In this document: piece after piece, positions 28,068-51,581 of the stretch | Layout of the letters: every line of letters begins with the position of its first letter | How positions within the stretch are numbered: position 1 is the stretch's first letter | Assembly: GCA_033439255.1 (NCBI GenBank) | Contig: CM065884.1 | Coordinates: forward strand, 1,798,001 to 1,862,000 | DNA: 64,000 bases | Reading direction: 5' to 3' | Source: Hericium rajendrae | Taxonomy: Eukaryota; Basidiomycota; Agaricomycetes; Russulales; Hericiaceae | The notes under the pieces: generated by a model | Databases searched by the model: none | The model's input: the letters and a program-made list of their open reading frames with translations, nothing else | What the model was told of the DNA's origin: nothing | Position numbers and translations under genes: made by a program

Positions 28068-31000
28068 CTATGTAAATGACCGCGCCCGCTCGAGGATCTC
28101 TGCCTCCGCGTTCAGCTTCGTGCTCTGCAAGTACTCGCAGAACTTGCGCGAGCCGTACATAGCGTACTCCGTGCGCAGAAAGCGGAGCGCGAGATCCACA
28201 TCCCATCGCGGCTTGCTGGACAGCTTCTGGATCAGCGCGATCGCTTTCTTGCGCCGCCCCCACTCAGTCTTGACGCCCGAGACATTTCCCCTCCACTTCG
28301 GTCCGAATTGCTCCTCGAGTTCGCGCACCGGCAGGTAGCCGTTGAGGCCCACCGTGTACTCCGTCCAGATGTCGTCGATGGTGGCGGCCGTCTGCATGAC
28401 GTACGAGGGCACGTAGATGCCAGACACAAGCTGCCACGGGTGCTGCACGACGGGCCTGTCGCCGTAGCGCTGTCGCAGCTCCTCCCGCTTCTTCCAGCGT
28501 GCATCAGGTGTTGTGGACGGGAGCGGGTTCGACGGCAGCCATGGCGCTGATTGCGCAGGTGCGACAGACGGCGGCGGCGGCATAATGCCGAATGCCGTCG
28601 CAGGTGGGTGTGCAGGGAATGCAGCAGCTGGGAGAGCGGGCTGCTCGGCATGCATCGGGGCAGAAGTGGAGGTGGAGGCGCCAGGCACGATAGCTGCCGT
28701 CGAGGTGGAAGCGGCAGCCGCGGTCGTCGAGACGGTGGCATCAGGGACTGCATGAAAACACAGCTGAGATCAGCAGGGGCCCGCAAGGATCAAGATATAA
28801 TTAAGTAAACCTACCCTGGCGTCGTTTGCGAGACGAACGCGCCCCGTTCTGCATCTGCACCTCAGCCATGAACTGGTGCATGCGCTCGGTCAGGTCGTTG
28901 TGACGCGCGCGGCTCTCCATGCGCTCCTGCTGCAGCTGCAGCGCCCAGTCGGTCGTGATGCCCTGCATTGTCTGTACTATGGCCTGCGGCAGGTTCTGGA
29001 AGGCCACCTGAGCTTCGCGTTCGGCAGCAGCGATCCGCTCACTCGCTCCCTCTGCGAACGTACGGAAGGATTGCGAGTTGAATGGCGGCAGATTGAAGAT
29101 CGGGTAGCTCGAGTTGCGACAGTAAAGGATGGCGGTGTCTTGCAAGAGCACACGGCGAAACCAGAGCATGACCTTCAGGAAGTTCTCGAGGGCGATGTCG
29201 ATCGCAACGCGGGTCTGCTGCACACGAACAGCAAGTGCCCGCTGCTCGTGCTCCACCCACGGGAAGACCAGGCAGAGGAGGTCATCCGGGGGCTCTGTCG
29301 TGATGCCTCGGCTTCAGCAAGCGGCCTCCGCATGAGATGGGAGGGAAGCGGCACTCACCGAGCACGTCGCGCGCAAGAAAGTATGACGATGGCTGCTGGC
29401 CGTTGAACATCGCCGACGCGAGGAGCACGTCCAGCGGCATGGCACGGTCGTAGCAGCCGCGAACGAGCCGGACTCGCTCCAGCCGCCCATCGCCTTCGTG
29501 CTTGCGATCGAGGCCCCATAACTGCAGGTGTTCTGTGCGCCGTAGTGACGAGAGGCATGCGTGACCTTCGAGATTGAGACCTCGTTCTCGAGGTGCATGT
29601 GTTTCATGCGATTGTAGTGGTCTAGCGGCCAAAGGCACAAGGCACCGGTCAGCTCCATTCCTTTCGCACACAGCAGGAGGTGACTGAGGTGCTCACTGTC
29701 GTAGGTCATGGCCTTGCTGATGTCCTTCGCATAGAACAGGTGGTACGAGTACCAGTCGCGGCGCCCGAACTCACCGAACTCCTTGTCATTGAAGTCCGGT
29801 GCGAAATCGGGCACGGGCTTCGACAGGACATGGAAGTGGGCCCAGAAGAGCCAGGCCATTGCCCCGACAGGGCAAAGCTCGACGAGGCGGTGGCGGATGA
29901 GGCCGTGCTCGTCAACACGGCCTTGTTGGTTGTGCTTGGCATTGTCGGAGAGGATGCCGAGCACCTAGACAGGAGCCCGACAGTCAGCAACAAGCAGACA
30001 CACAGCACAGCAGCGGGCAGACTTGCCTGCAGTCGATAGCCTGGCGAGATGTCGGGCACCGGAGCATGCGTGACGAACAGGTCCGACCACTCGACGTTGC
30101 GGGTACTGTCGCCACGGAACGCCGTGCCCGCCGACACGAGCAGCATCGCACGGTCTCGGAGGTGGAGGAAGACTTGGTCTGCCGTTCTCGACGTGGACAG
30201 GCACCAGAGGGAGCATTTCTGGAGCTCCTGCGGCATGTAGGCATCTGCAAAAATGGGCACGGGCATCAGTGTCCGCTATAGCGCTGCCGCTGCCGCTGCT
30301 GCTGAAACGAGCATCGCGAAGGGGAGGGGGAGGGAGGACTGACCGGAGGAGGTGCCGCTCGCCTTGAGGGCATTTGCGGTCTCGTTGCGACGAGGCTCGT
30401 TGTGACGGACGGAGCGTTCGAGCTCCGAGATGCGGGCATCGTCACGCAACTTCTTCTGAGCCTCGGGATCGTCCTTGTACAAGTGAGAGAAGTTCTTGCG
30501 GTACTTCTCCAAGGCGTTGACCACGCCGGAGATGTGGGACGCGCCAAGCGACGAGCCGGCGATCGTCTCGTTGCTGCCATGCTTGCGCTGCGACGAGGGG
30601 AAAAAAAGGGGGGGTCATGTCAGCATACAAAGACGGGCAGCATCCACAGTGCCAGCATGCTTACCTTCTCGCGCGTGGTCTCATGTTGAAGGAAGAAGGA
30701 GACCTTCATGGCCGTGATCGGCAGCGCCGGGATCACGGCCTCGATCTCGTGCTTCGCGAGGAGGTCGGGCACGTTGGCAGCCCACCACTTGACGTAGTTG
30801 TTGTAGATCGCTTGGTACTTTGTGCCCGTCGTGGTGTCGGCATGCAGGCGGGTGCTGAGCTCGAGACGGAGGTCGTGCGACTCCCTCTCGAGGCGCTCGA
30901 ATGCCGCACTCTCGGCCGGCGTGCCAGTGCCAGTCTGTACCACACAGGGCACAGCAGGGGGAAGGGGCGGCACGGCAGGGCTGCCACTGCTGCTCTTGCA

Positions 31001-31405
31001 CTGCAGCAGCGAGGACGGCAGCTGCGGCCGCTGTGGAACCGAGCGCGAGCGCGCGATCGCGACCGGCGCGAGCTGCGATCTGTCGAGCACGTCCGGGAGA
31101 ACAGACGGATGCGGCGCGGGAATGGACATAGACGGATGAGGCGCGGGAACAGTGGGACGCGGCGCAAGGAGCTCGGGAAGCTCGACGGAGGCGCGGCGCG
31201 GCATGGGGAATGCGCGCGCATTGCTCCCCATGCACGTGTCCAAATCCGGCGGTATGTCGGAACCACTGGCAGGCGACGGGCAAAAGGCAGGCCCGCGGGG
31301 GGGGCAGCAGCTGAAACTGCATGCATGCGCAGCAGCGCGTCCGGAGATGGGTCGCAGAAAACGAACTGGATGGGCTGGAACGGGTTGGCCGCCATTGGGG
31401 TGCAA
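28068..31405 (-). CDS. Crypton-type tyrosine recombinase with GCR1-like C-terminal domain, copy 1
   Basis: This is the recombinase of a Crypton-like DNA transposon, which would cut and rejoin DNA through a covalent tyrosine intermediate. Reading leftwards from about 31405: a Pro/Ser-rich N-terminus; a helical core-binding part (TGTKYQAIYNNYVKWWAANV, ITAMKVSFFLQHETTREK); the first catalytic Arg region (RDRAMLLVSAGTAFRGD); SDNAKHNQQGRVDEHGLI; then HASRHYGAQN (the H-x-x-R box), AMGGWSESGSF and CYDRAM with the probable nucleophile Tyr. A helical region (about 29256-28830) and a low-complexity linker lead to a GCR1_C-like domain (DIWTEYTVGLNGYLPVRELE, FGPKWRG, RRKKAIALIQKL). About six introns separate the blocks. 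All blocks read without stops, so the gene may be active. The exact start is unsure; element ends were not identified. Confidence 0.85.
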
Positions 31406-31559: not shown

Positions 31560-32576
31560 TGATGTGTGGACCCTGGGAATGGAGGCGGCAGCCAAAACCA
31601 AAACCAACAGAGTACCGGGGGGTGCGAGGGGACCAAGTATCTCAAGAGGGGAGCGCCGAGACGTGTAGCTGACGGGTGATCGTACTACGGGTAGGGGAGC
31701 AAGGCCGCGGAGGGCGAGCTTGCTGCGCGCGGGCGACTTCCGACACGGCTCTGCTAGGGACGATGACGGTACGACAAGACTCACGGGTCTTAGGTGATAC
31801 GGCTTGTAGATAACGGCACAGCGACGAGTACGACGAATATGATGAGCGACACGAGAAAGTGAGAAGAGCTACGTCTGAGACGTGCTTAGAGACTGGGGTG
31901 AGAACGTCAAACGGCGGGCTTTGTGAGATCTGAGCTCTGAGGGGAAAAAGGCAGATTCCGTTCCCATTCTCTAAGTCAGTAGCTACGGTACAAATGGGCA
32001 AGGCCGCCTCTGGCGGCCCGGCGCGACTCCCTACGACAACCTCCCGCTGACCGACCCAATCTCCAATTCCTTCCTGATCCTGCCTGCTCCGGGTCCCTTG
32101 GCGAGTGGAGTCGTTGCGACTCGGCCCGTGCAGGGCAGAGGGCGTGCGCGTGGTACGAACGAATCAAAGGTGCCGCCTTACAACGTCGCCCGGGCGTGCG
32201 TCAGGAACGGCGGGCACGTCGAGCTGGAATGGCTGGGATGACGTCAGTAGCGCACTGTCGCGGGCGCGCCGTGATCCGGGGGCGTGTGGGCGTTCGAGGG
32301 CGCGTTGATTGAGCCGGCTGGTTCTCTGGGCGCGCTTCTGTTCCTGTGCCGCTGACTCGTCCGGCCGGTTGATCTCCTGCCCGTTCGGTGCATCGGACCA
32401 CGGGACGCCGGCTTTAGTCTGACCCGGTCGGTCCCGAACCCGTGGGGGCGCTTGTCCTGTGCGGGGAGCAACGTCGCGGTGGGCGGACTTGGTGCGGCTG
32501 AGGTGAAGTGAAGCGGGACGGGCAAGGAGGCGGGGAGTGGGCAATGCCGTTGCAAGGCGCGCTAAAGGGCGCATCA
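31560..32576 (-). repeat. 3' LTR of element 1
   Basis: 1017 bases, about 99% identical by eye to 42689-43707. I count about eight small differences, for example in G-run lengths near 31640 and 32190 and around 32266. In element sense it starts TGATGCGCCC and ends ACACATCA. The polypurine tract abuts its inner edge. Confidence 0.92.
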
Positions 32577-32616
32577 TTCTCCCCCTAACTGAAAATTTAG
32601 ACTCTCCGTAGTCTAA
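32577..32616 (-). other. Hairpin plus polypurine tract, copy next to the 3' LTR (element 1)
   Basis: In element sense: a perfect 7-base-pair hairpin (TTAGACT, 6-base loop, AGTCTAA), then AAATTTTCAGTTAGGGGGAGAA cut here by its role: a T run, CAGTTA, and the purine tract GGGGGAGAA, which touches the LTR. This is the normal site for the plus-strand primer of reverse transcription. Confidence 0.8.
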
Positions 32617-32702
32617 TCTGGAGCCCCATGAGGGATTCGGGCGCGGACATGCGTGAAGCCGATTGTGCGACGGCGCCCTGGGCGGGTGTGCTGCAGCGAG
32701 CC

Positions 32703-32710
32703 TATAAAAG
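32703..32710 (+). promoter_or_regulatory. TATA box of the antisense cargo
   Basis: TATAAAAG lies about 65 bases before the ATG at 32774, on the strand of the cargo genes and just inside the 3' LTR and polypurine tract. This is a canonical core promoter spacing and supports separate transcription of the cargo. Confidence 0.65.
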
Positions 32711-32773
32711 GCATCTACGCCCCGGGAGGGCACTCAACTCTGAGCCATCTTCGCGCCCGGCAGTCTTGTCCCG

Positions 32774-33526
32774 ATGAACACCTTCCTTGATCAAGTCTTC
32801 CGCCAGAAAGTGACCTGGCTCCTTTCGGAGCGCTCGTGGACCCCGCTCGATGCGTCCACGCTGTCCAAGCGCGATGCGGTCATCCGGGAACGCGAGATCT
32901 GGGGTCGAGACCTCATGGTCGCCGTAGTACGTCCAAGCTCGTTTGCGGCGTTGTTGCGTACCTGCTAATTCTCGGGACTCCAGAAGGACTACCAGCGCTA
33001 CGCTGGCGCCATCGACGTGGGTCTGCAGGATGACATCACGCAGATGTCGGACCACTTCCTGTCCGAGGCCGCCCGTGCGTCCGGGAAAGTCCGCCGTTGG
33101 CTCGACTGGGGTTGGTACCTCATGCCGTCGCTGAAGCGCGAGTGGCTTGATTCCCTGAAGCACCATCAGGTAGATGCCGCGGACCGCCTGTCCGTGGCCG
33201 AGTCCGAGCTGTGGGAGACGCGCCGCGCGGTGGCCCTGGAGGAAATCGATATCACCTGCCGCAAGTACCAGTATGACGTCATAGACGCGGAGGCCTGCAA
33301 GCGGGCTCTGGAGCCGTTGTTCGCCAGGCTGCATCAAGCGGTCTCCGCGCCGGAGTTGCCGTGGGAAGACGCCGGGGGAGAGGTGAGCGAGGATCCGCAT
33401 GAGCTAGAGACGATGCACCGCCTAGTGGCGGAGGCACTCGACTTGGCCGAGCTGCTGCGGCTTCCGCCCTACCGAGCAGACGAGGAGGGCGCCCGTGACA
33501 GGGTCGCGGGAGGGGCCGCGGATTAG
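32774..33526 (+). CDS. Antisense cargo gene A of element 1, unrecognised helical protein
   Basis: Two exons, 32774-32926 and 32984-33526, joined in phase 0. The intron has donor GTACGT, branch CTAAT and acceptor CCAG, and carries an in-frame stop if not removed. The product is 231 residues: MNTFLDQVFRQKVTWLLSER at the start, then IWGRDLMVAVKDYQRYAG, RRWLDWGWYLMPSLKREWLD, AADRLSVAESELWETRRAVA, ALEPLFARLHQAVSAP and LAEALDLAELL-like helices. It is rich in Arg, Glu and Trp, has no Cys cluster or membrane segment, and ends with an acidic stretch and GGAAD. No family is recognised. It lies within an LTR element on the strand opposite gag-pol, downstream of a TATA box, and is followed 300 bases later by cargo gene B. 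Confidence 0.75.
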
Positions 33527-33831
33527 TATAGTACGATGTACGCCGGTGGCGAGCATGCCTCGCCGCTCAATTGAACTATTCTGGTGCCAAGGCGCACTAT
33601 GCTGTCTGTGGGACTTGCCTGTCGTTGAATAGGCTTCCTGTTCGCGAGACGCGGCTGAAATGACAAATGGGCGCCAATCGGGGCCTGAGATCCTGATTGA
33701 GTCCGAAGCGACAACTGTTTTGGCCGGGTGCCCGCGTCGCGGGCTTCTGCGCGAAGCTGCGAAGCTACCTGTATGCGGGGGCTTCTCCGGAGGCAATTCG
33801 CCAGGCGCTTCCGTCTTGTCGCGGAGTCCTT

Positions 33832-35616
33832 ATGAACACTGAGTTGCGAGGCGACTCGCTCCTCAGCACCTCGTCTCCCATGGCTCGCGCATACGTCGAC
33901 AACCGCCCCAAGGGTATTCAGGCTCTCGAACGCCTCTTCGGGTCAGGCCACCCGCGCGAAGGCGACCCCGGCAATGTCTGGGCAGAGTGGATCACCCAGG
34001 TTGCCAGTTGCTTGGTGAGTCCGCCGGCGCACGTTTTGCTTCCGTCCCCGCTGACCACCACTCCTGACAGGGCCCTCTCTTGAGGTCGTCGACCCACCTC
34101 GACAACGATTTCTTCCGTCGCGGGATCGCCGACGCCCGTGTAGTCTTCAGCCGCCTCGAGCTGAAGTCCGACCGCAAGTGGGGTGCCAAGGTGCTCGACG
34201 TCTTCGAGCCCCCCGAAGACCCGACCGAGACAGAGGACCGGGAGACCGACAAGCTCGAGGAGAGCGACGACGACACCCCGCTCGCGGCCGCGACACCCAA
34301 GGGCAAGGGGCCCGCGCAGGTCGCGCCCGTTTCAACGCGCAAGACAGGGCCCCCTAAGGGCAAAAGGGCGGCCGTGCCAACCAACGAGACCCCGCAGGCC
34401 TCGTCTTCCACGCGCACCAGGGCTCCGTCGCCGCCCCGCTCGCAGACCGGTGAGCAAGACCGCCTCGAAGTCGCCGCCCTGTTGACCGCCACCGGTGTCG
34501 TAGACGCGTCCGCCGAGCGGGACGTAGACCCGGCTCTGGACGCTCCAGTGTCCGCCGCGACTCGCGCGGCCAAGCGCAAGGCCGTAGCACCTGTCGAGGA
34601 GGAGGAGGCGGGGGACGAGATTGTCGAAGTGCCCCCGCCGGCGAAGAGGGCGCGTACGGGGCCGGCTGGCGCCGTCGCTGCGAACGAGGGGAAAGGGAAG
34701 GCCAAGGCCAAGGAGCCCGATGAGAAGTGGGGTCCGGTAAGTACCCATCTCCTCCACCTGTGCTCGACGCTAATTTTCTGTTTGCGTAGTGCCTGCCCGA
34801 GCAGTGGTGCACCGCGTGCATCAACGAGGGCAAGGAGTGCCTCCGCCGGGTCCTCCCTGCGAAGAACGTCGGGCGCGCGAAGCACGAGCGATGCTGCGAG
34901 TGCAGCGAGAAGCGCACTTCCTGCCTCGCCTGTGTCGACCTCAACGCGCATCTGACGCGGATGGGTGCGCCCGTCGTGGATCCCGTTGCCGCGCGCGCCG
35001 CTGTGGCTTCTTCTGGTCGCGACCAGGTGGCCGACTCCCCCGTGGTCTTGCCGGGGATACCAGACTCCGCGGGCGCGCTCCGTAAGTCGCTACCCCACTG
35101 TTGCTACGCGTTTGCTGACCGGGTGACCGTCCTACAGCCCCGTTCGAGGCGCTCGCATCTCGCCTTCCGTTCCCGGTCTCCGACGGCTTCCGTCCAGGGG
35201 CCTGGGACTACGTCGACCCCTACGCGTGCATTCCGCGCGATTCGTCGCTCCGCCGCACCCTGCTCGCGGAGACCGAGCGGCAGCTCGTCGGTTTGTACCT
35301 CCAATGCATGTCGAACCACGGCCAGATCCTCGCCGTCGAGAGGCTCGTCACGGCCCTCTATACGGGCATGCGCGGCGAGTATATCGCAGCGGAGGTGGAT
35401 GAAGAGGGCAAGGTCGCCAAGGACGAGCCTGCGGACGCCGCTAGCGACGCAGAGGAGGAGGCCGCGGCGAGTCCCACCGCGGGTCCGTCTTCGCGCCCGC
35501 TCGCGAGGGAGTCCCCCGTTCCTTCGGTCGAGGGTCCTGGTGAGCCGTTGGAGCCGATGGCGGCTCCTGTCGCTGAGGTGGCCGCGTCAGAGGAAGTCGT
35601 GCCGGCTGACTCCTGA
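33832..35616 (+). CDS. Antisense cargo gene B of element 1, protein with a Zn2Cys6-like cluster
   Basis: Four exons join with correct phase: 33832-34014, 34071-34736, 34790-35081, 35138-35616 (donors GTGAGT, GTAAGT, GTAAGT). The protein has about 539 residues. The N-terminus (MNTELRGDSLLSTSSPMARA, YVDNRPKGIQALERLFGSG) is followed by a long acidic/basic disordered region. Exon 3 has CTACINEGKEC, then 17 residues, then CCECSEKRTSC, i.e. C-x2-C-x6-C ... C-x2-C-x6-C. This is the Zn2Cys6 DNA-binding pattern with a longer linker than the usual 5-12. Exon 4 has FPVSDGFRPGAWDYVDPYAC and a helical stretch RTLLAETERQLVGLYLQCMS, then an acidic tail ending VVPADS. A DNA-binding regulator is the best inference; the target is unknown. 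The frame is fully open, suggesting selection. Confidence 0.78.
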
Positions 35617-35639
35617 CGAGCGGGGCTGTCGCTTTGCGT

Positions 35640-35745
35640 GGGGAGGGAAAGACCCTCCCCTTTTAAATTTGCTATCTTGTTTTGTCGTCGTGGAAGTTGT
35701 CGCATACGTTTTGTGTTGCCCGGGCCTTAGGCCCGGCTTTTTACT
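35640..35745 (+). terminator. Two GC-rich hairpins with T runs after cargo gene B
   Basis: An 8-base-pair hairpin, GGGGAGGG/CCCTCCCC with loop AAAGA (35640-35660), is followed by TTTTAAATTT. A second, CCGGGCC/GGCCCGG with loop TTA (35720-35736), is followed by CTTTTTAC. Both sit between cargo gene B and the end of pol. They could limit read-through between converging transcripts; this is inference. Confidence 0.4.
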
Positions 35746-36044
35746 ATAGGTCGCTCGTAATCGGGACGCTGAGTCCTACTGTATCGTTGCTCCTGCCGAA
35801 TGGGAGCCCATCTTGAAGTCTGAACCTGTGTGAATCTAAAGGGGAAAACCAGAAAGAAACAAAGTCGCCCCAGGCGATCTTGTCAGGGCCTATACGATTG
35901 GTGAAGGTAACATCTGAGTGGTGGATGGTATGAAGATCGCCCAAGGCGAGTTTGTCGAAATGCAAGTAACAATAGATTTATTTCGTGCGTGTGGGTATTG
36001 GTGGGGCGTCCAAGGTCGTCGACACGCTTGACTGACGGCCTCTA

Positions 36045-36079
36045 CTCCCCCTAACTGAAAAATGGACTGCCCTCAGTCC
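36045..36079 (-). other. Hairpin plus polypurine tract, copy at the end of pol (element 1)
   Basis: In element sense: hairpin GGACTG, loop AGGG, CAGTCC, then a T run, CAGTTA and GGGGGAGTA. It is the same module as at the 3' LTR but 3.5 kb away. The pol stop codon TGA (36073-36075) lies inside the hairpin. Confidence 0.75.
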
Positions 36080-39000
36080 TCCTCGCTAGTCGAGTGGTCA
36101 GAGGACGCCGCGGGCGAACTTGGTCGGGACCTGTCGAATTCGCCGAGGTCACTGCCGGCGGTTTCGTCATCCGGGTCTGTGACGGTGGAGGCGAGTAAAC
36201 GTTCAAACTGCTCGATGCCGACATCGAGGAAATCTTCCAATGGCGGGTGATCGAGGATGGTACGGGCGAAATACGGGACAACGCGGTAGGCTGCGGTGGG
36301 CCGGTCGAATAACGTACCGTCGAGCTCACACAAGAGGTAAGCACGCCCCTTGTTGCGGCCGAGGACGAGGTATGGGCCTAGGTAGCGCGGTTTGGTCTTC
36401 CGGGAATGGCTGGTGCTGTACGCGGAATTGCGGACAAGTACCAGTTCGCCGCGGCGAAAGTCAAAGTCGCGGATCGTGCGTTCATGTTCCAGTTCGAATT
36501 TTCGTGCTGCCTGGAGGCGGGCCTCGTAGACGCGGCTGTGAAGTCGCTGAAGGTCCTTTTGACGCTTCTGCAGGGCAAGAGCGTGGGAGGCGATCAGGTC
36601 GGTAGAGGACAAGATTGCCTCGGGCGGCGGTAGCAGGTAGGTGGCTTCCGCGATATCGAGCGGCATCAGGGGGTGCGTACCGGTTACCGCGAAGTATGGG
36701 GAACAGCCCATGCGCCGGCGGATGGTGATACGTTCCGACCAGAACACGGAGTGGGCTGAGTAGCTCCAATTCTTCTCCACGCCGTCGGCGGCCTTGATCA
36801 GGGCTTGGCGTACGTCAAAGTGTGCACGCTCAGCGATGCCGTTGGCTCTCGAGTTATAGCCCGAGATGCAGATATGCCGGACGTGGTACTTCTTTTCCAG
36901 CTGCGTCAAGGCTTTAACGAACGGGCCGCCGTTGTCGGACACGATTTCGGTGAGCATACCCCAGCGGCACAAGATGTCTTGGTAAATCCAATCAGCAATG
37001 TGCTCGCTGCGTTCTTTGCGCAGCATGCGCCATTCGGGAAAGTGGGACACCGAGCAGCGCCCTTGGACCAGGTATTGCATATTGTTGGATTTCGGCAGGT
37101 GCATGGTATCCATGTACATTTTCGCAAATAAAGGCGCGGGCACCGCAACCATTGGCGGGATAAGAACTTTGCGGATCTGGAACGCTTGGCAAATATGGCA
37201 CGAACGGACGAACCAAGCGACATCCGAGCCCATAAAAGGCCACCAGAAATGGACCGCGAGCAGGAGGGCGGTTGCGGCGACGCCACGGTGTCCCGCGGAC
37301 TCGTGAGTCTCAACGAGAGCAGCCCAGCGGCCGGTCGGCAGGAGCACTAGTTTGTGCGCATTTGTCTTGTCGCGCTTCCAGAGGCGGCCACCTTTCATGA
37401 AGAAGTCGCGGCAATAACGCAGGAAGCGAGCGTATTCCCGGTCCGTCAGTCCGTCAGGGCGGATCGGATGGAGCAGGAAGTCGGTGACGGCACGCAGTCG
37501 GGCATCCGTGAGGAGGGATTTTTCGGACCTTGGAACGTCTGCGTAGGACGCCAAGTGGTCTTGCGGAGGAGGCGCGACAAAATCGCCGGCGGCGACATTG
37601 GTCGAGATGAGCTGTTGGGCCAGCTGAGGGCGGTCGTGGCCGATCCGAGGCACATTTATTATGTGTACAAAGCCATAAGCACGGTCGACCCAGTCGTCGA
37701 AGTCGTCGTCGGGTTCGGGCGCATCATCGTCCTGGGGGCGGCGCCGGGAGAGGCCATCCGGCCCATGCTTCTCGCCAGGGACGTGGACCAGGGTAAATTG
37801 AAACATGAGGATGCCGACGATCCACCGGTTCATGGACGCACTAGGGGCGAGATCGGGATTATTCAGCATGCCGGATATATAACGGGCGTCGACTTCGATA
37901 ATCAGGTTGCAAACGCCAATGAGCCAGAGTTTGAGTGCGCGGAGGCTCCGGTATAGGCCATATAATTCCAGCTTTGGTTGGGAGAAGCGCGCCTCACGGT
38001 CGTTCAGGGCGATAGAGCCGAAGCGAGCATACCGGCGAACTTTGGGGTCGTCCACATCCTGTTGACAGAGTAGGTAACCGATGGCAATATAGGAGGTGTC
38101 GACGCCCAGGATCACTGAGGCGGGAGACTCGTAATCTATCGCGCGCAGGGCGGGTGATGCGAGTAGCGCTTGCTTAAGGTCTTCCTGCGCAGCCAACTGG
38201 TCTGGGCCGAACTCGAATGGGGTGTCCTTGCGCGTAAGCCGTACCAGATGGTGAGCACGTTTTGCAAAGTTCTTGATGAAGATGCGGGCCACGCCAATGG
38301 TCCCGAGGAAAGCGCGAACGTCCGAGAGGTCGGTACAAGGTTGCCAGTTGCTGACCTTGGCGAGGTTGCTGAGTTCTGGCAAACGGCCCGCCGGCGTGCA
38401 TCTATGGCCGACGACGATGATTTCCGGCGCGCAAAGGACAGTCTTTTTCCCTGAGAAGGTACCACCGCAATATTTCATGCGTTGGACGACACGGTTCGCG
38501 CCCTGGAAGTGTTCCCAGACAAAGCGACGAATACCTGGGTTCCAGGGTATAGTTTCAAAATTTCCGCCGGGCAACTCGTAACGGGTAGCTGGGCCTTTAA
38601 TGGGGACATCATCGATATAGGGCATGGTGACAGCTGGGATTTCTGGCCGGAGGATTTCGGTAACGTCGTCGTGGAAGATAGGCACGGAGTTCGTCCACCC
38701 CATGGGCAGCGTAACGAGCCGTTTGGGCCCGAACGGGGTTTGGAACGTGGTCATGTCGCGGGACTCCTCCGCCAAGAGTCGCTCGTCGTAACCAACGTAG
38801 AGATCGAGGATGCCGCCGCAAGCACGCCCGGCGAACTGCTCGGCGAGCTGGTCGGTAAAAGGCGGGACGCCCGAGTGAGCGATGGTGACCTTGTTGAGTG
38901 GTTCGAGACTGTGCACAATGCGCAGGCTTGTACCATCCTTTTTGGTGACGCAGAACCAGCGTGAGCGATATGACGACGACGAAGGCTCATATACGCCGGC

Positions 39001-39757
39001 GGCGATCTTGGTACGGATAATCTCGCAGACCTTGTCATGGATGCCTGGCGGGATTGGACGGTTCTTCAAGACCCAGGGGGTGTGCGGTATCACCGGCATA
39101 ACCACTGAGGGGAAGAAGTCTTCGCGGAAATGTCCCCACTCTGAATCGTCCCAGGTGAAGGCGGTATCGTGGAGACACATGAAATGGTGGAGTAGGTCGC
39201 GCTCGGAGGGCCAGAGGAAACCTTCTGGATGGGCGCGATCGATAACCGCTTTTCTTTCTTCGGTATAGCGGGGGTGTGGGAGCGAACGGGGGCGGATTGG
39301 GAGATAACTCCGGCAGGTCTTGGAGAGGGTCGCCTTTGATGTTACGGAGAACCCGAAAACGCTCGGGGAGGTCCGTAAATACTGGGCGGACTTTTTGGGC
39401 AACTGGCTTGTATTTCTTTGCGGCGTAAGAGGCGACAGGAGGACCGGTATCCGTCGCGCCAGGAGGCGGCGGACCCGGGCGACCTTGCTTGGAAGCGGAA
39501 GCGGACTTGCAGGCTGTAGCGGAGAGAAAGGCGGACAACAAATTAGATTTATCGGGGGCATCCGAAAGCGAAGGACCCCCCGGACTAGAGTCGAGAAGCG
39601 GGGCATCACAGGCATAGAGATAAAGAGATTGAAGATGATCTTGGCGTTTTTCTGGGTTTTCGGAACATTCTGGGGGTATAGCGGCATAAGCCGTGATTTG
39701 CGGCGTCTCCGAGTCGAAATCAACGATGAAGGCGACCTCTCCTTGATCTTCGATCAA
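36073..39757 (-). CDS. Element 1 pol: reverse transcriptase, RNase H and integrase
   Basis: An uninterrupted 1216-codon frame ends at 36073. Blocks in order: KKDGTSLRIVHSLEPLNKV, GGILDLYVGYDERLLA, LPMGWTNSVPIFHDDV and the RT active site MPYIDDVP (YIDD); then the Ty3-type RNase H segment VILGVDTSYIAIGYLLCQQD with KLELYGLYRSLRALK. The integrase zinc finger follows (HESAGHRG ... CHICQ, an HHCC set) with the catalytic triad in MYMDTMHLP, SDNGGPF and GIAERAHFD. The tail shows FRRGELVLVRNSA and PRYLGPYLV (GPY-like module). All key residues are present. The N-terminal part, up to about 39280, reads in a neighbouring frame (39035-39757), so one frame break separates protease from RT. Confidence 0.92.
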
Positions 39758-40368
39758 ATCATCGAAGCGCGAAAATCCTCCTTTGCCGCGAGCGTATACT
39801 GAATGTCAGTGCGCAGGTGGGTGGGGATCGTGGCTGCTTCGCCGGTGTTTGGGTCGAAGATGGTGATGGTCTGTGTTTCATTGCGGTAGCTGCGCACGAC
39901 TGACTCGGTAAGCACATCGAAGGGGCGTCCGAGTAGGATATTGTAGGCGGGCGACCGGAGGACGTGTATTTGGAGGTAGAGAACAATGTTGCCGAAGACT
40001 GCAGGCACGTTTCGGCACAGGCCCAGCGAGTCATCAAGTTCGCCGTTGGCGGATTGCATAGTGAGGATAATCGTGGGGTCATACGACAGGCCTAAGGTGT
40101 AGCAAACGCTCTCTGACATGGAGATGACCTGAGAACCTGGGTCCAAGATGCACTCGACCGGTTCTTGATGATCTATGAGTGCTGCAATAGAACGCAGCGC
40201 CGCAGACTCGCGCGAGACGATCAGGGGTTTAGGCTTTTCGTCCGGGCGGAGTTGCTTGAGGTACTGCTCGTAGGGATCCGGGAGGACAACAGCACCTTCC
40301 GGCGGCTCGGCGCACTGGTGCGAAAGGATAGATACTCGTGGATGGGGGCGAGGCCGGGTGCTGCACAC
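39754..40368 (-). CDS. Element 1 protease domain (retropepsin) and flanking region
   Basis: The open frame contains VECILDPGSQVISMSESVCY, an aspartic protease active site written DPGS rather than the usual DTGS or DSGS. It is followed by VFGNIVLYLQIHVLRSPAYN and ILLGRPFDVL, the family's conserved ILG(R/M)PF block. The upstream part (PDPYEQYLKQLRPDEKPKPL) links it to gag. It should be read as part of one Gag-Pol polyprotein, with frame changes on both sides (near 40300 and 39755). Confidence 0.8.
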   Translation of the reverse strand: MCSTRPRPHPRVSILSHQCAEPPEGAVVLPDPYEQYLKQLRPDEKPKPLIVSRESAALRSIAALIDHQEPVECILDPGSQVISMSESVCYTLGLSYDPTIILTMQSANGELDDSLGLCRNVPAVFGNIVLYLQIHVLRSPAYNILLGRPFDVLTESVVRSYRNETQTITIFDPNTGEAATIPTHLRTDIQYTLAAKEDFRASMI

Positions 40369-42258
40369 GGTCGCCTTCGGCGGGCTCGCTCGCGAACTGG
40401 ATACCTGCAGCGAGCTCTACTTGACGCGCTGGCGAGGCCAGCTCCTCGACTGCATCTTCACCTGGCAGCTCGGAGAGCAGGTCAGTCTCGTTAAGGACTT
40501 CCAACAGGTTCTGTCCCGCCACCGGACGCGTGTGACGCCGTGAGACTGCCTCCTTGTATTTCGCGCGTAGTGCAGGAGCCAGGGACCAGAGCTCGCCCTG
40601 GGTGACCTCGATAGGGAGGGACATGGCGCGCGCGAACACGCGGTCCAGTACGTCTTGCCCGACTGAGTCTTGCGCACGACGGGTTGGGCCCGTCTCTTCG
40701 ACTACTTCGATCACTGGGACTTGCGCGGGCCTTGCACCGTCGCGGGCTCTGGCAAATGGGTGGACGGGACCATCAGGGTCGCAGAGGTCGTCGCGTACCG
40801 CAGGTTGAGATAGAAGGTGGGGGGGGACGTCTCGTTCCGGGCCTGGGGCCGGTGAAGCTTGCGGAGGGGGCAGGGACGCCCGCGGCGGCTCTGGTTCGTC
40901 CTCGATGGTCGGGCGCGGTGGCGCACGGGGCAATCGTGGAGGGGCTGGTTGGCGGGCAGGCTCTTCCATCCTGCGAGCTCGTTCCAATGCCCAGTTAGCT
41001 CTATCACGGCTGGCCGCGGCATTGGGTGGGGGCACAACCGAGGCGTCCTTCAACTGGTATAACCGCCGTAGCTCGCCCTCCAGGCTCTCGATCTGCGCGT
41101 CTGTGGTGAGCTGGTACAACCCTGCCTGGACCTGGGTATAGGGGGACGCGGTGGTCTGAGCGTATGCCGGCGCGACGCGATAGCCGTAGGGAGGAGCCCC
41201 GCCCGCGGCGAACTTGCCTGGTGGGTACCGGCTACACCCATCATAAGCTGACCCGTGGCTCGCTGATTGGGGTTCATACGGTGGTATTCGTCGATCCGTT
41301 CGGCCATAGTCGCGCCTGGGGGTCCTTGCGGGAGCCAAGCCCCAGAGGGTAAGACCATCTTGCCTTGGACGTCCTTCTTGCACTTGCCGGCGGCCATGTA
41401 TTCCCGGGCTGTCATGCATTCGCACACGAAATGCCCCACGTTCCCACAGAAGTTGCACTGATCCGACCCCATTCGCCCGCGCATTGGCGCGCCTTGATTA
41501 CCTCCGGAGACCATCGGTTGACGCGACGGCTGCTGCGCGCTCCTCAAGAGGATATCGGCCAGTGACGCTAACTGCTCACTCTTAATCTGGATAGTCATCC
41601 CTGAGCCTGCATCGGCGGTTGATGACGACGCGGTGGCTTGAGTTGACGACGGTCCACGCAGGTACGGGTCGGGGGTGATGGCAGTGCCATACATGCACCA
41701 CTCTGCGGCCCTATAGACGTCGTTGATCGGGTGCGGATCGTCGGGATGGTGATCAGGCTTGGTAAGAGCAAGGCGGTCCTCTACCCGCAGGCGAAGACGT
41801 TCGGGGAGCGCCGCCAAAAACCAGCGTTGTTCCTCGATATCGGAGATGCGGTTCTTGCCTTTCAGGTAGCGCGTGATGACCGTGAACTCGCGCGAGAACG
41901 CACCAAGTTCGCCGACGGAACTGAGGGTGGACTCGGCAGTTCGGTGGACGAGTGACTCCAAATCTTGACGCGAAAAGGTATTCTCCTTAGCCGAGCCCGG
42001 GTAGAGTTCGTGGATAGCTTTCTTGAATTCGTCCCAAGTGCCGGCGGCGTACTTGGCCTCGGACCGCCACAGCTCTTGTGCGTCAACGTCTGAGAGGAGA
42101 CGGACCGCATGACTCTTTTTCTCCGCATCATCTGCCACGGAGGAACGCTGAAAACAAAATTCGAGATCGAGGAAGTAACGGCCCAGCTCGCGGGGGGAGT
42201 TGGTGTCGAACTTGGGAGCACCGCTCTCGCCGCGCATAGGCATGGAGGGGGGCGGCAT
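40369..42258 (-). CDS. Element 1 gag with zinc knuckle
   Basis: The first ATG after the LTR in the open frame is at 42258 (MPPPSMPMRGESGAPKF). The capsid-like part includes ELGRYFLDLEFCFQRSSVAD, EKKSHAVRLLSDVDAQELWR, GTWDEFKKAIHELYPGS, TFSRQDLESLVHRTAES and RWFLAALPERLRLRVEDRL. The nucleocapsid knuckle CNFCGNVGHFVCEC fits C-x2-C-x4-H-x4-C. The frame changes near 41230 into one carrying TDAQIESLEGELRRLYQLKD and a Pro-rich region down to about 40330. The frame is open upstream of 42258 to the LTR, so a non-ATG start or a spliced leader is possible. It is homologous to the gag of element 2. Confidence 0.85.
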
Positions 42259-42667
42259 GACTGGTTGGATACTTGGTGGCCTGGGGAAGGGGAAACGTGC
42301 AGGGGCTAGCGGGCTGTGTTGTTGAGTAGGAGAAGGGGGACGGAGGGTAGCAGGGAAAGTCGCCTGGTGCGGCGTTGTCCTAGGACCCGCGGTAGCAGAG
42401 GGGCTGGCAAGGGGTCGCGGCGCCGGAGTCGGCGATACGGGTGGAGTAGGAACGATGAAGGAACGCTCGAGCTCGGGAATTTCGAACTCTTCGTCGATGG
42501 GAGTAAGGGGACTAGTGGGAGTTGGAACCGGCGGGAAGGGTGACGGTAGGTCGGGGGAAACTTGCTGAGGGTCCTGAGTCGCAACACGGACTTCTTGTTC
42601 GAGGGTACGATCTGGATTCGACCGTGCGCTACTCCTAGTACGACGCGGCTCTATTTTGAGTATGGAA

Positions 42668-42685
42668 CCCTCGCGGTGGGCTCCA
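42668..42685 (-). other. Primer-binding site of element 1
   Basis: In element sense TGGAGCCCACCGCGAGG begins three bases after the LTR. A tRNA 3' end complementary to it would finish GGGCT-CCA with U at the discriminator, a feature of tRNA-Cys. The tRNA identity is only suggested. The same site occurs in element 2. Confidence 0.6.
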
Positions 42686-42688
42686 AAA

Positions 42689-43707
42689 TGATGTGTGGAC
42701 CCTGGGAATGGAGGCGGCAGCCAAAACCAAAACCAACAGAGTACCGGGGGGTGCGAGGGGACCAAGTATCTCAAGAGGGAGCGCCGAGACGTGTAGCTGA
42801 CGGGTGATCGTACTACGGGTAGGGGAGCAAGGCCGCGGAGGGCGAGCTTGCTGCGCGCGGGCGACTTCCGACACGGCTCTGCTAGGGACGATGACGGTAC
42901 GACAAGACTCACGGGTCTTAGGTGATACGGCTTGTAGATAACGGCGCGGCGACGAGTACGACGAATATGATGAGCGACACGAGAAAGTGAGAAGAGCTAC
43001 GTCTGAGACGTGCTTAGAGACTGGGGTGAGAACGTCAAACGGCGGGCTTTGTGAGATCTGAGCTCTGAGGGGAAAAAGGCAGATTCCGTTCCCATTCTCT
43101 AAGTCAGTAGCTATGGTACAAATGGGCAAGGCCGCCTCTGGCGGCCCGGCGCGACTCCCTACGACAACCTCCCGCTGACCGACCCAATCTCCAATTCCTT
43201 CCTGATCCTGCCTGCTCCGGGTCCCTTGGCGAGTGGAGTCGTTGCGACTCGGCCCGTGCAGGGCAGAGGGCGTGCGCGTGGTACGAACGAATCAAAGGTG
43301 CCGCCTTACAACGTCGCCCGGGGCGTGCGTCAGGAACGGCGGGCACGTCGAGCTGGAATGGCTGGGATGACGTCAGTAGCGCACTGTCGCGGGCGCCGCT
43401 CGTGATCCGGGGGCGTGTGGGCGTTCGAGGGCACGTTGATTGAGCCGGCTGGTTCTCTGGGCGCGCTTCTGTTCCTGTGCCGCTGACTCGTCCGGCCGGT
43501 TGATCTCCTGCCCGTTCGGTGCATCGGACCACGGGACGCCGGCTTTAGTCCGACCCGGTCGGTCCCGAACCCGTGGGGGCGCTTGTCCTGTGCGGGGAGC
43601 AACGTCGCGGTGGGCGGACTTGGTGCGGCTGAGGTGAAGTGAAGCGGGACGGGCAAGGAGGCGGGGAGTGGGCAATGCCGTTGCAAGGCGCGCTAAAGGG
43701 CGCATCA
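42689..43707 (-). repeat. 5' LTR of element 1
   Basis: 1019 bases, partner of 31560-32576. Its inner edge (42689) is followed in element sense by TTT and then the primer-binding site. Two direct copies with this level of identity imply recent insertion. Confidence 0.92.
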
Positions 43708-44534: not shown

Positions 44535-45355
44535 TGATACGCCTCAAGCTGTGTTCAGCAACGTCAGACCTCATCTCACCATCTTCCATGCAGTTCCCCT
44601 TCACTCCCATCCAGCTTCCAGCTCCTCACCCACCAACCCCGCTCAGAGCAGTGATGTCCCTCATCTCAGGAGTTGTCAGCTACTGCAGGCCTCACCGAGG
44701 TTTCCTCAAGTTCGCTCCAGGTCGTCCTCAGCGGTTTTGGTGAGCCAATCAGGTTGCTGGCATTATGGTACCGGGTCTGTGTTGTACAGGATGCCTAGAT
44801 GCCACCTTTTGATGGTTTCGGACCATAGATGTACCATAGAGCAGCCGAGTCCAAGATCGCCCGAGACCGCCAAGGGCGAGTTTCTTACTTGTATGGTAGA
44901 CAGAGTCCCAGCTTCGAATAGAACCCCCCAGTGCACCTTTCCCCCTCAGAGCTCAGACCTCAGAAGTCTCTCTCACTGTTGTTCTCATCGTTCTCCGGAC
45001 TTTAGACAAGTCCGCCCTCTTTAGGCCAGTCCGCCCGCAGCGTCGTTCGTCAGATTCAGTCATATCAGCCGCTTTTCAGTCCTTTTCTCTAGGATTAGCC
45101 CGTCATATCGGAGACCCGTGTGTCTCGTCGTTCTCCTTGTCATTCCACAGCCGTTCCTCATCCTTCCCAGCCGCTTATCACCAGATCGCCTCAGACTCGC
45201 CCTTAGCGAACCGGTCGCTCCATTGTTCCCGCTGCAGTGACCCTCAGCTGCCCTCACCTCACTCCTCACTTGAGATACTTGGTCCCCTCGCACCCCCCAG
45301 TACTCTGTTGGTTTTGGTTTTGGCTGCCGCCTCCATTCCCAGGGTCCACACATCA
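44535..45355 (+). repeat. 5' LTR of element 2
   Basis: 821 bases, TGATACGCC to ACACATCA. It differs from 51582-52402 at only about four positions (near 44801, 44850, 44950 and 44989). Its last ~100 bases match the end of the element 1 LTR. Confidence 0.93.
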
Positions 45356-45358
45356 TTT

Positions 45359-45376
45359 TGGAGCCCACCGCGAGGG
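45359..45376 (+). other. Primer-binding site of element 2
   Basis: TGGAGCCCACCGCGAGG starts three bases after the LTR, identical to that of element 1, and the next ~17 bases are also shared. Confidence 0.65.
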
Positions 45377-46299
45377 TTCCATACTCAAAACAGTGAGGGG
45401 TGTACCCAGGCGTAGCCTCTATCGGGTCAAGACTGCCATCGAGGTCAAGACATCGCATTTTTGCTCTCTATCACATTCTCGCTCGCTATCGCCTTAGGCA
45501 GCCTTGGTGCATTCTTCAAGATCGTCCTTGGTTGCAGAGCTTTCCAATCGGTTCTCATCACCATTCATCGCACCTGATTGCCTCCTGTCGCTTTCCACCA
45601 TCCTGCCCCTCCCAGAGTCGCTTTTTGTCGCCCAGGACCATCCTCCATCTCTCCTCAGTGCCCTGTACTGGCTCAGATCGTTCTGAGTCATCTCCTATCA
45701 CCTCTCGTCACCTCCGGCCTTTCTTCGTCGTCTTTAAGTCACTCCAATCGTCTTTAATCGTCCCTTGATCACCTCAGATCGTCTCAGCTCGCCTCAAGGT
45801 TCATCTGAAAAATGTACCAATGCTATGTTGCTCTATATAATTTATATAGATCTCATAGTTCCATAGCAATCCTCTTTTATACATAGGACCCTCATAGTTG
45901 AAAGGCAGTCTATGACAAGCTATATAATCAAATAGGATTGCTATATCTAGCTATGGTAGCTATGGTAGCTATCAGAGCATAAGGTATGACTATGATAATT
46001 ATAGAGGCTATGTTTGTTATGCTATATATGCTCAATATAATATTATATCTAGCTTCATAGGATTGCTATCTACTCTATCTCACCTTTAAGTACTATATTG
46101 CCTAACAATACTAGGAAAATATTTCAAATCTCTTAATTGTTTTATAAGCTTCAAACTATTATATTTTTGAACAAGCAAAACATCGAAAAATTGAAGATTA
46201 TATTATCACTAATACACAAAAGATACCAATACATAACAAAACTACATCATACTATAAAGCTGACAAGTTTATACATATTTACAACTATAAGTTAGATTA

Positions 46300-46530
46300 G
46301 ATCAGATATATAAATATAAATATAACACAAAGACTTATCCAAAGGCAATAAAAAGCGAAAATGAAAGCTTAAGTCAACAACTTATTGTAAGTTAAGAATA
46401 GAAAAAAAGAACAAGATATAAGACTTACCAAAGAGGAGAAAAAGCGAAAATATTCAAGTCTACAAAGAGAATATATAAGCCTAAGTGTTAATTAATAATG
46501 TAACAACATAAGAACTTACCAAACATAGAG
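46300..46530. repeat. Degenerate AT-rich repeats
   Basis: The words AAGACTTA(C/T)CCAAA and AAAAAGCGAAAAT recur two or three times, about 100 bases apart, in the left AT-rich arm of the insertion. Confidence 0.4.
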
Positions 46531-47072
46531 ACTTGGAGAGAGAGAGAGGAGAGAATGGCGAAAGACAGGAGATGGTAGTGGTACGGAAGAGAGAGAGGAC
46601 GCGCGTCGCGCATGCCTTATATAGGCGAGTGCGTCGGAGCCCGAATTACAGCTGGCCCGGTGGTTGCCGGGCGTCGCGGCAGAGGCTGCCGCTTTAGATC
46701 TCACTAAGTTAGCTTGAGTACTGATGAACGTAGACTAGCATAGATACATACATACCTCATTCATCGTGTAGAAATAAAAGATTTATGTGTACTCCTTTTT
46801 TCCTGGATTTATTAGCATTTGATTTGATTTGTTGAGCTCGAAACCGCCGGCCGCGCGAGTCGAATGCTGTGGCTGGCTCGACGCGCGACTTCGTGCGTCT
46901 CCTCTGTCCATCTCCCACTCCATCTCCCCTCGTCTAGCCTGGTCTCCCTCCCCTTTTTCCTTATACAAGTGTTGCACAACGTCGATCGCAGGTCGAGAGG
47001 ATTAGTAGGAGGACCGGGGCCCTCTAGGTAAGTAGAACTATATTCTTTTTATATTGTCTTCGTGCTAATCAG

Positions 47073-47106
47073 ACGAGTATCGTTCGTGCAAACGAACGAT
47101 ACTCGT
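47073..47106. other. Perfect 15-base-pair hairpin
   Basis: ACGAGTATCGTTCGT, loop GCAA, ACGAACGATACTCGT. There are no mismatches. Confidence 0.85.
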
Positions 47107-47211
47107 ATGTCTTCTCGCGACCGCGCCTCGCCTTCGACACCTCGCGGCCAAGGCCATGGCCACGACACAACCCCATCCCACTCCCTCGACAACGCCGTCG
47201 TCGACGTCGAC

Positions 47212-47245
47212 GTCAGGTCTCGTTGCCACGGCAACGAGGCCTGAC
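47212..47245. other. Long near-perfect hairpin
   Basis: GTCAGG-t-CTCGTTGCC, loop AC, GGCAACGAG-g-CCTGAC: 15 paired bases with one T-G opposition. It lies 105 bases from the hairpin at 47073-47106. Confidence 0.8.
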
Positions 47246-47919
47246 TAAATGTCGCACGACGTGCTCTTCCGCCGCCCTCTGCCGCAACACCAACGCGCAA
47301 GCCCAGCCCCCACTTCCACTCCCGCCGCCGACCCGCGCTCGCCCTCGCCCCCATTGCCAGCGGAAACGCGTGCGCGCGCTGGCAAGTCCGCGCATACGGC
47401 CCCGGACGACCGCTGCACGGGCAGCTGCAGGCAGCGCACGCCGGTGGACAACTGCGCCAGCGCACGCAGTCACGTCGGGCAACCCGCGGACGATCCCGCC
47501 AGCCCATGCACGGCATGGTATCGCCCCCGCACGACCAGACGACCGCGCCAGCACGAAAACGCAGGCACGCAGGCCCGCATGGCGAGCGCCGCCACGTCCG
47601 GCCTTGCCAACGTGCGGGTGGTCGCCCGCGTCCCGCGTTCTCGCCGCCGTGCACCGCCTGCACACGACCGTGGAGACCGCGCCAGCACAACCACGCGGAC
47701 GACCGCGCCAGCCCATGCACGGGCAGTCGTGCACCGCCCTGCCGGCGCGTGGGCCGCCACGCGCCACGTACGGCCTCGTCTGCCAACGTAGAGTCACGCA
47801 GGCCGGCGATTGCGCGCACACGCACGGCGTGGGCAGCCGTGCATCGCCCCGTCTGCGCGCGCACGGCCGCACTTACCGTGCCAACGCACGCACGCGACGA
47901 CGGTGCAGGCAGCCACCTA

Positions 47920-48060
47920 CGGCGCCGTCTGCGCGCGCGAGACCACGTACGGCGCCGTCTGCGCGCGCGACCACGCGCGGCGCCGTCTGCGCGCGCGACC
48001 ACGCACGGCGCCGTCTGCGCGCCCGAGGCCACGCACGCCGGCGACGAAGCGCGGAGTCAC
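47920..48060. repeat. GC-rich tandem repeat, unit about 27-30 bases
   Basis: Repeats of GGCGCCGTCTGCGCGCGCGA followed by CCACG(C/T). At least four units are visible. Long open frames on both strands here come from base composition. Confidence 0.7.
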
Positions 48061-49514
48061 GCATGCCGGCGACGGCGCGTGCATGGCGGTCCCGACGACG
48101 GGCGCCGCGTTGTCTGCGCATGCCCTTGTGCGCGCATGCGAGGTCTGTAATTAGGAACTTAGTTACTTTAATAATATAGTAGACTGCTTGTAATTTTAAT
48201 GTCTCATCCCTTAAATTTAAGAAATTTCTTCGGTGTCTATCTCATTGAATATAGCCAGTATAGTAATCATAGGAGTCATAGCTCCCCTTCCTGAGTAGTA
48301 TAGCTCTATGTATTTAATACAACTAGCTATAGAGACTATATAATTTACACTGCCTGCTATGGAGGCTATGGTAGCTATCATAGCTCTATATAGCTTGACA
48401 AGTCAAAGCCATAGACTCCATAGCTCACCTATAGAATCCATAGTTTGACCCTTTGCTATATAAAAATCAGATTTTTCAGATGTTGCCTTAGGCAGACTCG
48501 GTCCCCAGCATCTCTTACTGCCTGGCATCACTTCTCACTTCGTTTGGTCACCCCAGATCGCATTTTGACGGCATTAGTTGGTCTTCAATCGCTCTTGTTT
48601 GCCTTTTTAGCACCCAGGATCATCGCCTAGCGCTGTTGCCACAGAGTCGCCGATAGCGTACTAGGTCGCAGCCAGCTTTCAGCATCTTAGGTCGTCCAGG
48701 ATTGCCCTTATATCCCCTTCGGCGACCTCTTCACACCATTGAGTCATCCCAGCTCCCTTCTGTTGCTCAGACTTGCCTTGGAGGTGCCTCTGTACCCCAT
48801 AGCTTGGATCAGCTCCTCCTCCTATCACCTTCCAGTGCTTTGAGTCACTTTTCTTTGCCCCAGGGTGCCTATCGATCACTCCTATCACTGTCTTTCGTTC
48901 AGGAGCCATCTCCCATCGACTTATCGCATTTTGTCTTAGGCAAGGTCACCCCAGCATCCCTAGCACTCTCCATTGGTTGCAGAGGAGTCTTGTTTCTTTC
49001 AGGTTGAGCCAGTTGTGTCCAGACCACTTACAGTCCATCCCAAAGTCACCATTGACGTTCAGGAGCATCTCAAGTCGCTCTCAGGTCATTTTCTTGGCCC
49101 CTTCTTGCTTTCTTTTGTTTCAGATTTCCGCTGGCGATCTTGACTCGCCGTCGGCGACATTGGTTGCTTTTAGCAGTTTCTCATCGCTTTTCCAGGTCGT
49201 ATCGTCCCAGGAGCACCCCTGGCCCCTTTGGATCATCTCTCCCTATCGCTTGTCATTCTGGTTGCCCCAGAATTGCCTTCTATCGCTTTTGAGCACCTTT
49301 CATCGCTTTTGAGCATTCCAGATCATCGGTTATCATCGCAGGTCGTCGTCCACCACCTTGGATCTTCACTCGTCCCTTCCAATTGTCTCGCATTGCCCTA
49401 GTCATAGCAAGATCGCCTCAAAGTCGCTCCTCATCGCCCCTGATCGCCCCTAGTCCATCTCAGGCTCACTTTCCTCGCATCAGAGTCACCTCCATCGTTC
49501 CTGATTGCTCTAGC

Positions 49515-51443: not shown

Positions 51444-51543
51444 TCGTTGTCACCACCTCCACTCTCCTTCTCAGCTATAGTGAGAACACCGCTCGAAGCG
51501 TATTTGGTGTCTAGCGTCTGAATCCCTCGTGGGGCTCATTGGT

Positions 51544-51581
51544 TAGACTGAGGACAGTCTATTTTTCAGTTGGGGGGAGAA
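51544..51581 (+). other. Hairpin plus polypurine tract of element 2
   Basis: Stem TAGACTG, loop AGGA, CAGTCTA (7 perfect pairs), then TTTTTCAGT and the tract TGGGGGGAGAA touching the 3' LTR at 51582. It lies about 100 bases after the gag stop. Confidence 0.82.

Follow-up and report, generated by a model that had tools for sequence, protein, structure and literature searches.

Passage through RNA as a rule strips genes of their introns. Retrotransposition indicators of the Ty1 his3-AI type carry an artificial antisense marker with an intron that faces the sense RNA and is hence lost. Antisense accessory open reading frames (ORFs) between pol and the 3' long terminal repeat (LTR) are known from plants (Grande gene23, RIRE2, Retand TRP28 and PvRetro13); they reportedly occur in most copies, and for Grande an own promoter and a nuclear product were reported. 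Where most of them come from is called unknown, and they are suspected of a nuclear or regulatory role (PMC7264820; PMC11963269). The word "intron" is absent from the text of the Retand paper (PMC11963269). Among fungi, Boty (Botrytis, Sclerotinia) is described as an LTR element with an antisense gene, brtn, between pol and the 3' LTR (PMC7264820; PMC4227169; the title of Zhao et al. 2011, cited in PMC8365987). In Didymium, a nuclear group I intron contains a homing endonuclease gene in antisense orientation that is itself interrupted by a spliceosomal intron, and its expression was shown (PMC9548176). Here we describe element 1, a Ty3/gypsy LTR retrotransposon (31560-43707, gag-pol on the minus strand) in a window of 64,000 nucleotides, the whole stretch of Hericium rajendrae DNA that was analysed (C7:1798001-1862000 of the host genome; searches of this own genome covered 46.8 Mb in 19 contigs). 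Between pol and the 3' LTR its plus strand carries gene A (231 amino acids, one intron) and gene B (523 amino acids, three introns).

We consider it probable that element 1 belongs to a Ty3/gypsy family whose antisense two-gene spliced module, placed between two polypurine tracts (PPTs), is kept functional for the element. Judged from the sequences, the module is family-wide, its introns have been retained through separate retrotranspositions, its reading frames are constrained, and one unit of hairpin, U-rich stretch and polypurine tract is duplicated around it. The features of the module are as follows.

32577-32613, minus strand: 3' copy of the hairpin, U-rich and polypurine unit, immediately adjoining the 3' LTR
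32701-32712, plus strand: TATA box of gene A, unchanged in 34 of the 37 rows that have letters
32774-32926, plus strand: gene A exon 1
32927-32983, plus strand: gene A intron, 57 nt, phase 0, branch motif CTAAT
32984-33526, plus strand: gene A exon 2 and stop
33880-34014, plus strand: gene B exon 1
34015-34070, plus strand: gene B intron 1, 56 nt, phase 0, branch motif CTGAC
34071-34736, plus strand: gene B exon 2, with an acidic/basic linker and a KR-rich stretch resembling a nuclear localisation signal (NLS), by eye
34737-34789, plus strand: gene B intron 2, 53 nt, phase 0, branch motif CTAAT
34790-35081, plus strand: gene B exon 3, with an eight-cysteine Zn2Cys6-like motif
35082-35137, plus strand: gene B intron 3, 56 nt, phase 1, branch motif CTGAC
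35138-35616, plus strand: gene B exon 4 and stop
36045-36078, minus strand: internal copy of the hairpin, U-rich and polypurine unit, which overlaps with the stop codon of pol

A preliminary description of this DNA had read two intron-bearing plus-strand genes between integrase and the 3' LTR, a TATA box ahead of the first ATG, and four introns with correct donors, acceptors and phases. All of this held: the exon coordinates, the Pfam-placed pol and a splice scan agree with the gene models, TATAAAA stands at 32703-32709, 64 bases ahead of the gene A ATG, and each intron has a GTRNGT donor, a CTRAY branch motif 15-19 nt from the intron end and a YAG acceptor. The scan (GTRNGT ... CTRAY ... YAG, length 45-90 nt; not blind, as its limits were chosen after the introns were known) picked out the four predicted donors and no others on the plus strand of the cargo (3.5 kb), whereas first-order Markov sequences of the same composition gave a mean of 0.28 donors and reached four in 2 of 500 cases. 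No site came up on the cargo minus strand, nor in sense orientation anywhere in the element; about zero are expected there by chance, and this is not counted as avoidance. Across 40 aligned rows (window element counted twice; denominators are rows with letters) both intron ends are intact in 36 of 38 rows for the intron of gene A and in 40 of 40, 39 of 40 and 31 of 34 rows for introns 1, 2 and 3 of gene B, and the start codons are kept in 36 of 38 (A) and 40 of 40 rows (B). Several of the rows that fail the intron check are misaligned past a truncation, and the row from C10 has a genuine acceptor change.

At least 42 places in the host genome match the 3503-base cargo region (from 40 scored candidates out of 66); 25 of these matches, the window among them, are full-length. 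In 24 of 40 copies, assembled from overlapping loci and again including the window, a complete 3' LTR is joined to the cargo, and the introns are present in the covered part. Target duplications were sought in the flanks past the 5' LTR of eight further copies, six of which were readable on both sides, and in the window copy; they are exact 4-bp duplications in six of the seven readable copies (GCGC, CCGC, CCGG, GCGG), and three of four bases match in the seventh. Because the introns are kept in nearly all covering copies and target duplications flank the copies, the intron-bearing cargo has truly been retrotransposed, and it is well supported that it moved with the element at least several separate times. 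Segmental duplication of a chromosomal locus was rejected on account of the target duplications.

The same association is seen from the side of pol. Among 37 integrase matches that reach the end of the query, a second PPT core lies 3.56-3.64 kb away in 25 and at 1.26 kb in one, which has a shortened cargo; five of the remaining 11 adjoin B sequence (C13:625009, C6:248557, C7:3035822, C11:1724848, C7:2394492). The cargo thus adjoins pol at 31 of the 37 integrase ends, the other six being probably obscured by nested insertions, and a cargo-free family member was not demonstrated among them. The exact core of the internal PPT unit is found 103-121 nt beyond the end of the integrase match at 35 of these 37 places, and the nearest near-full-length integrase relatives outside the family are 31-38% identical (best 91 of 303 candidates). 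Gene A exon 2 gave 45 matches, 42 with the family PPT upstream within 3.2 kb; with all 62 own-genome candidates for gene A scored, no copy lies clearly outside the element family, a match on C1 being ambiguous in its context. One outcome that the preliminary description had named as fatal, homologues always outside LTR elements with this copy a one-off capture, did not arise in the own genome: a one-off capture of the cargo is rejected by the family-wide copies and their PPT context, and the homologues there are not confined to places outside LTR elements.

To the extent that sequence comparison can tell, the annotated frames of A and B are under constraint. The naive ratio of nonsynonymous to synonymous substitution (dN/dS) is 0.20-0.57 for whole genes, measured against eight more distant copies, and its counterpart for variants (pN/pS) drops from 0.57-0.60 for singletons to 0.30 for those present at least four times. 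Naive dN/dS exaggerates the constraint because CpG transitions dominate and lie nearer neutral, and the analysis therefore relies on shared non-CpG changes. In the corrected test all CpG changes were set aside, transitions and transversions were stratified, and 39 distinct rows were used with row kinship ignored; the duplicate of the window copy and the disrupted copy C7:2382237 were excluded before the count, and truncated copies were masked past the break. Shared non-CpG changes in A and B together comprise 32 nonsynonymous and 36 synonymous changes, against 47.9 nonsynonymous expected (z -4.2, omega 0.37), and variants in at least four rows comprise 8 and 13 (omega 0.26). Gene B alone (28 nonsynonymous, 31 synonymous, z -4.1) provides most of the signal. 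As frame controls, gene B gave 1.62 and 2.22 in the other plus frames and 1.99, 1.32 and 0.45 in the minus frames; for gene A the values were 3.18 and 1.68, and 1.50, 0.52 and 1.60. Random decay with dN/dS near 1, which the preliminary description had named as refuting, is not what the shared non-CpG changes show, although the CpG changes lie closer to that value. An earlier all-class version of the CpG-stratified test on 36 young rows was weak (z -0.5 to -2.3), pol as a yardstick offered 7 non-CpG changes in 1.5 kb of 8 copies, too few to compare, and indel lengths in the cargo copies were uninformative. The differences between cargo copies are mostly C-to-T or G-to-A at CpG, suggesting that inserted copies are cytosine-methylated.

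Protein A has no relative in Pfam, PDB or protein-database searches, and PDB sequence searches with the cargo proteins gave nothing useful. For protein B (best 8000 candidates, then 2810, scored) a single database relative was found, EWM64_g5559 of Hericium alpestre (Russulales), at 77% over 69%. Exon 3 of gene B encodes C-x5-C-x2-C-x6-C-x17-C-x2-C-x6-C-x2-C, and these eight cysteines are kept in 19 other rows, including P0001 of H. alpestre, bar two single losses. The fungal Zn2Cys6 cluster (PF00172) has the spacing C-x2-C-x6-C-x5..12-C-x2-C-x6..8-C. The cysteine blocks of B match the Zn2Cys6 blocks, but its loop of 17 residues exceeds that spacing. Because the loop is longer and the Pfam model fails, protein B is, by its sequence, Zn2Cys6-like and not a member.

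According to the reading that we favour, gag-pol RNA would start in the 5' LTR and carry the module antisense, and the introns would persist as the spliceosome ignores introns in antisense orientation. The mRNAs of A and B would arise from internal promoters on the inserted DNA (for A, the TATA box at 32701) and then be spliced, and their proteins would aid the element. B, with its Zn2Cys6-like cysteines and NLS-like stretch, would most likely act in the nucleus as a DNA-binding regulator, and A as a helical partner. A more far-reaching version seems to us possible but rather doubtful: the antisense strand would be a spliceosome-safe compartment in which introns are kept indefinitely while sense genes are intronless, the module would have been acquired whole with duplication of the PPT unit and would encode a zinc-cluster-like nuclear regulator and a partner that control the element, and the introns might also flag the transcript to host surveillance as that of an ordinary gene.

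Several results weigh against a module kept functional for the element. Stops or frameshift-length gaps occur in some cargo copies, and the copies differ mostly by CpG transitions, for which omega is 0.85 among singletons, 0.77 among shared changes and 0.57 among those in at least four rows. The non-CpG singletons have an omega of 0.63, not 1; the copies are related and were compared without tree correction, the result being carried by 68 shared non-CpG changes; gene A alone is weak (4 nonsynonymous, 5 synonymous, z -1.7); and the minus frame with shared wobble positions is also low (0.52 for A, 0.45 for B). Protein B has no Pfam match up to E 10, PF00172 included, and structure models of gene A exon 2 and of H. 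alpestre P0001 are of low confidence (predicted local distance difference test, pLDDT, 46.6 and 36.8). For gene B, 82 of 142 own-genome candidates were scored, and the gene A match on C1 has no recognisable LTR, PPT or pol nearby; we rejected this copy (L069) as a separate lineage, as it is truncated, lacks exon 1 and has many CpG-type changes. The overall interpretation of the preliminary description is partly supported, namely by the family-wide cargo, the introns in independent insertions and the constrained frames.

Three other explanations were weighed against these data. A and B might be two host genes captured once, passive and without function for the element, with a constraint that predates the capture; no role is known for them, the CpG changes come close to neutrality and stops are present in part of the copies, but the shared non-CpG changes arose within the family, hence after capture, and have an omega of 0.26-0.37 in the annotated frame. 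Moreover, no host homologue of A was found in the own genome and none of B outside the element among the best 82 of 142 candidates there, and the protein searches gave one Hericium protein only, so we regard passive capture as unlikely. It seems to us quite unlikely that the plus-strand RNA, rather than a protein, acts by pairing with gag-pol RNA as a double strand (in copy-number control or silencing): such a regulator needs neither the frame-specific constraint nor the conserved splice signals that are both seen, although the convergent orientation would suit it and antisense ORFs of plants have been proposed to act in this way through their RNA (PMC7264820). Finally, GC-rich DNA gives long random ORFs on both strands, and the introns could be mis-called or A and B be chance ORFs opposite a former coding region; the four consensus introns (against 2 of 500 simulations), the conservation of their signals across copies and the frame controls make this very improbable, and we rejected chance ORFs on the simulations and frame controls.

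Element 1 itself has a TG...CA LTR pair, a target duplication (GCGC on both sides), a primer binding site (PBS), a PPT before the 3' LTR and the domain order of Ty3/gypsy, with RNase H preceding the integrase zinc-binding domain (Pfam) in the pol ORF; it is a Ty3/gypsy LTR retrotransposon. Its LTRs differ by five substitutions and four single-base gaps (counted by eye from the alignment), and because LTRs and copies are near-identical the family appears to have been recently active. The 16-base core of the PBS has 78 exact occurrences genome-wide, and a Pfam search of the gag region was without match. The remaining features of element 1, and two further elements, are given below.

31560-32576, minus strand: 3' LTR (relative to gag-pol), 1017 bp, from local alignment with 42689-43707; ends TGATG...CATCA
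36073-39723, minus strand: pol ORF with RNase H and integrase (PF17919, PF17917, PF17921, in Ty3 order; reverse transcriptase by eye)
39754-40368, minus strand: aspartyl protease (PF13975, E 2e-5, just below the model's cut-off)
41050-42750, minus strand: gag region, by its likeness by eye to the gag of element 2; reading frames shift along gag-pol of this copy
42668-42685, minus strand: PBS, TGGAGCCCACCGCGAGGG, read directly and identical in element 2
42689-43707, minus strand: 5' LTR, 1019 bp, from alignment with 31560-32576; ends TGATG...CATCA
44535-52402: element 2, LTRs of 821 bp (4 differences between them), target duplication GCGG, and a gag-like ORF that looks, by eye, like that of element 1
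C9:1207174-1209402 (L079:175 to L080:902): coding-LTR copy of another gypsy family, its 5' partner ending at C9:1196680

The hairpin, U-rich and polypurine unit is present twice in element 1, bracketing the cargo: in sense orientation the end of pol reads GACTGAGGGCAGTC-CATTTTTCAGTTAGGGGGAG and the stretch before the 3' LTR GACTACGGAGAGTC-TAAATTTTCAGTTAGGGGGAGAA, and the pair has an alignment score of 40 versus at most 27 for up to 300 random pairs. Element 2 has the same type of PBS and PPT; a single unit of this kind sits right against its 3' LTR, where no cargo is found. No pol was seen in element 2, and its LTR has at least 40 matches in the host genome, from 40 scored candidates out of 182; the element is perhaps non-autonomous and mobilised by element 1 proteins. 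The ancestral order may have been gag(-pol)-PPT-LTR, as element 2 shows it, and the cargo is most simply read as an arrival between PPT and LTR that brought along a second PPT unit. A possible route would be a read-through transcript from a copy without 3' LTR that ran on across two opposite-facing genes as far as the PPT and LTR at the end of another copy; the unit at the pol end might additionally prime internal plus-strand synthesis. To the left of element 2 and of each of the seven readable insertions of element 1 stands a 4-mer made up of G and C alone (GCGC, CCGC, CCGG, GCGG), which hints at a preference for GC-rich targets. At 47894-48065, element 2 has overlapping 28-30-bp repeats upstream of gag.

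The other gypsy family (example C9:1194641-1208634) carries an intronless sense ORF of 423 amino acids inside both LTRs. Its integrase is about 38% identical to that of element 1, and its LTRs of about 2.2 kb start with TGTC (by eye) and end with GACA (aligned). The ORF has no Pfam match above cut-off; pairs of it 12.7-15.4 kb apart flank PBS and integrase at at least six places, and homologues (28-44%) are paired about 11.6-12 kb apart in further gypsy families. The sense gene is intronless and the antisense genes are spliced, as the strand rule predicts, although two families make no statistic. The window's elements are flanked by multi-exon genes, alike by eye, at 28068-31405 (minus strand) and 53420-56912 (plus strand), and an ORF of the right-hand gene has an NDC10_II domain (PF16787). 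This family includes Ndc10, a relative of tyrosine recombinases.

Element 1 would offer a natural route by which a retrotransposon can carry, amplify and keep selected intron-bearing genes, against the usual rule. The indicator genes likewise rest on strand-dependent splicing, but the introns of element 1 face the gene and are kept. With the Didymium group I intron it shares an antisense gene holding a spliceosomal intron within a mobile element; that system involves no LTR element, and homing endonuclease elements move via DNA break repair. In literature searches (open PMC text only), no title or abstract was recognised as describing an LTR element that carries two spliced genes in antisense. 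The duplicated PPT unit provides a testable clue to the acquisition of such modules, which is called unknown for most in the portion of the literature that addresses it (PMC7264820). Boty, too, is a fungal LTR element whose antisense accessory gene lies between pol and the 3' LTR; it differs in its ascomycete host and its one named gene. The plant antisense ORFs agree with the cargo of element 1 in position, orientation and presence in most copies, whereas the proteins of element 1 are different and it has two genes, four introns, a fungal host and duplicated PPT units around them. Because antisense accessory ORFs are known from plants and from the fungal Boty, the spliced two-gene module of this basidiomycete is a new variant of them, and it extends this class from plants and one ascomycete family to another fungus.

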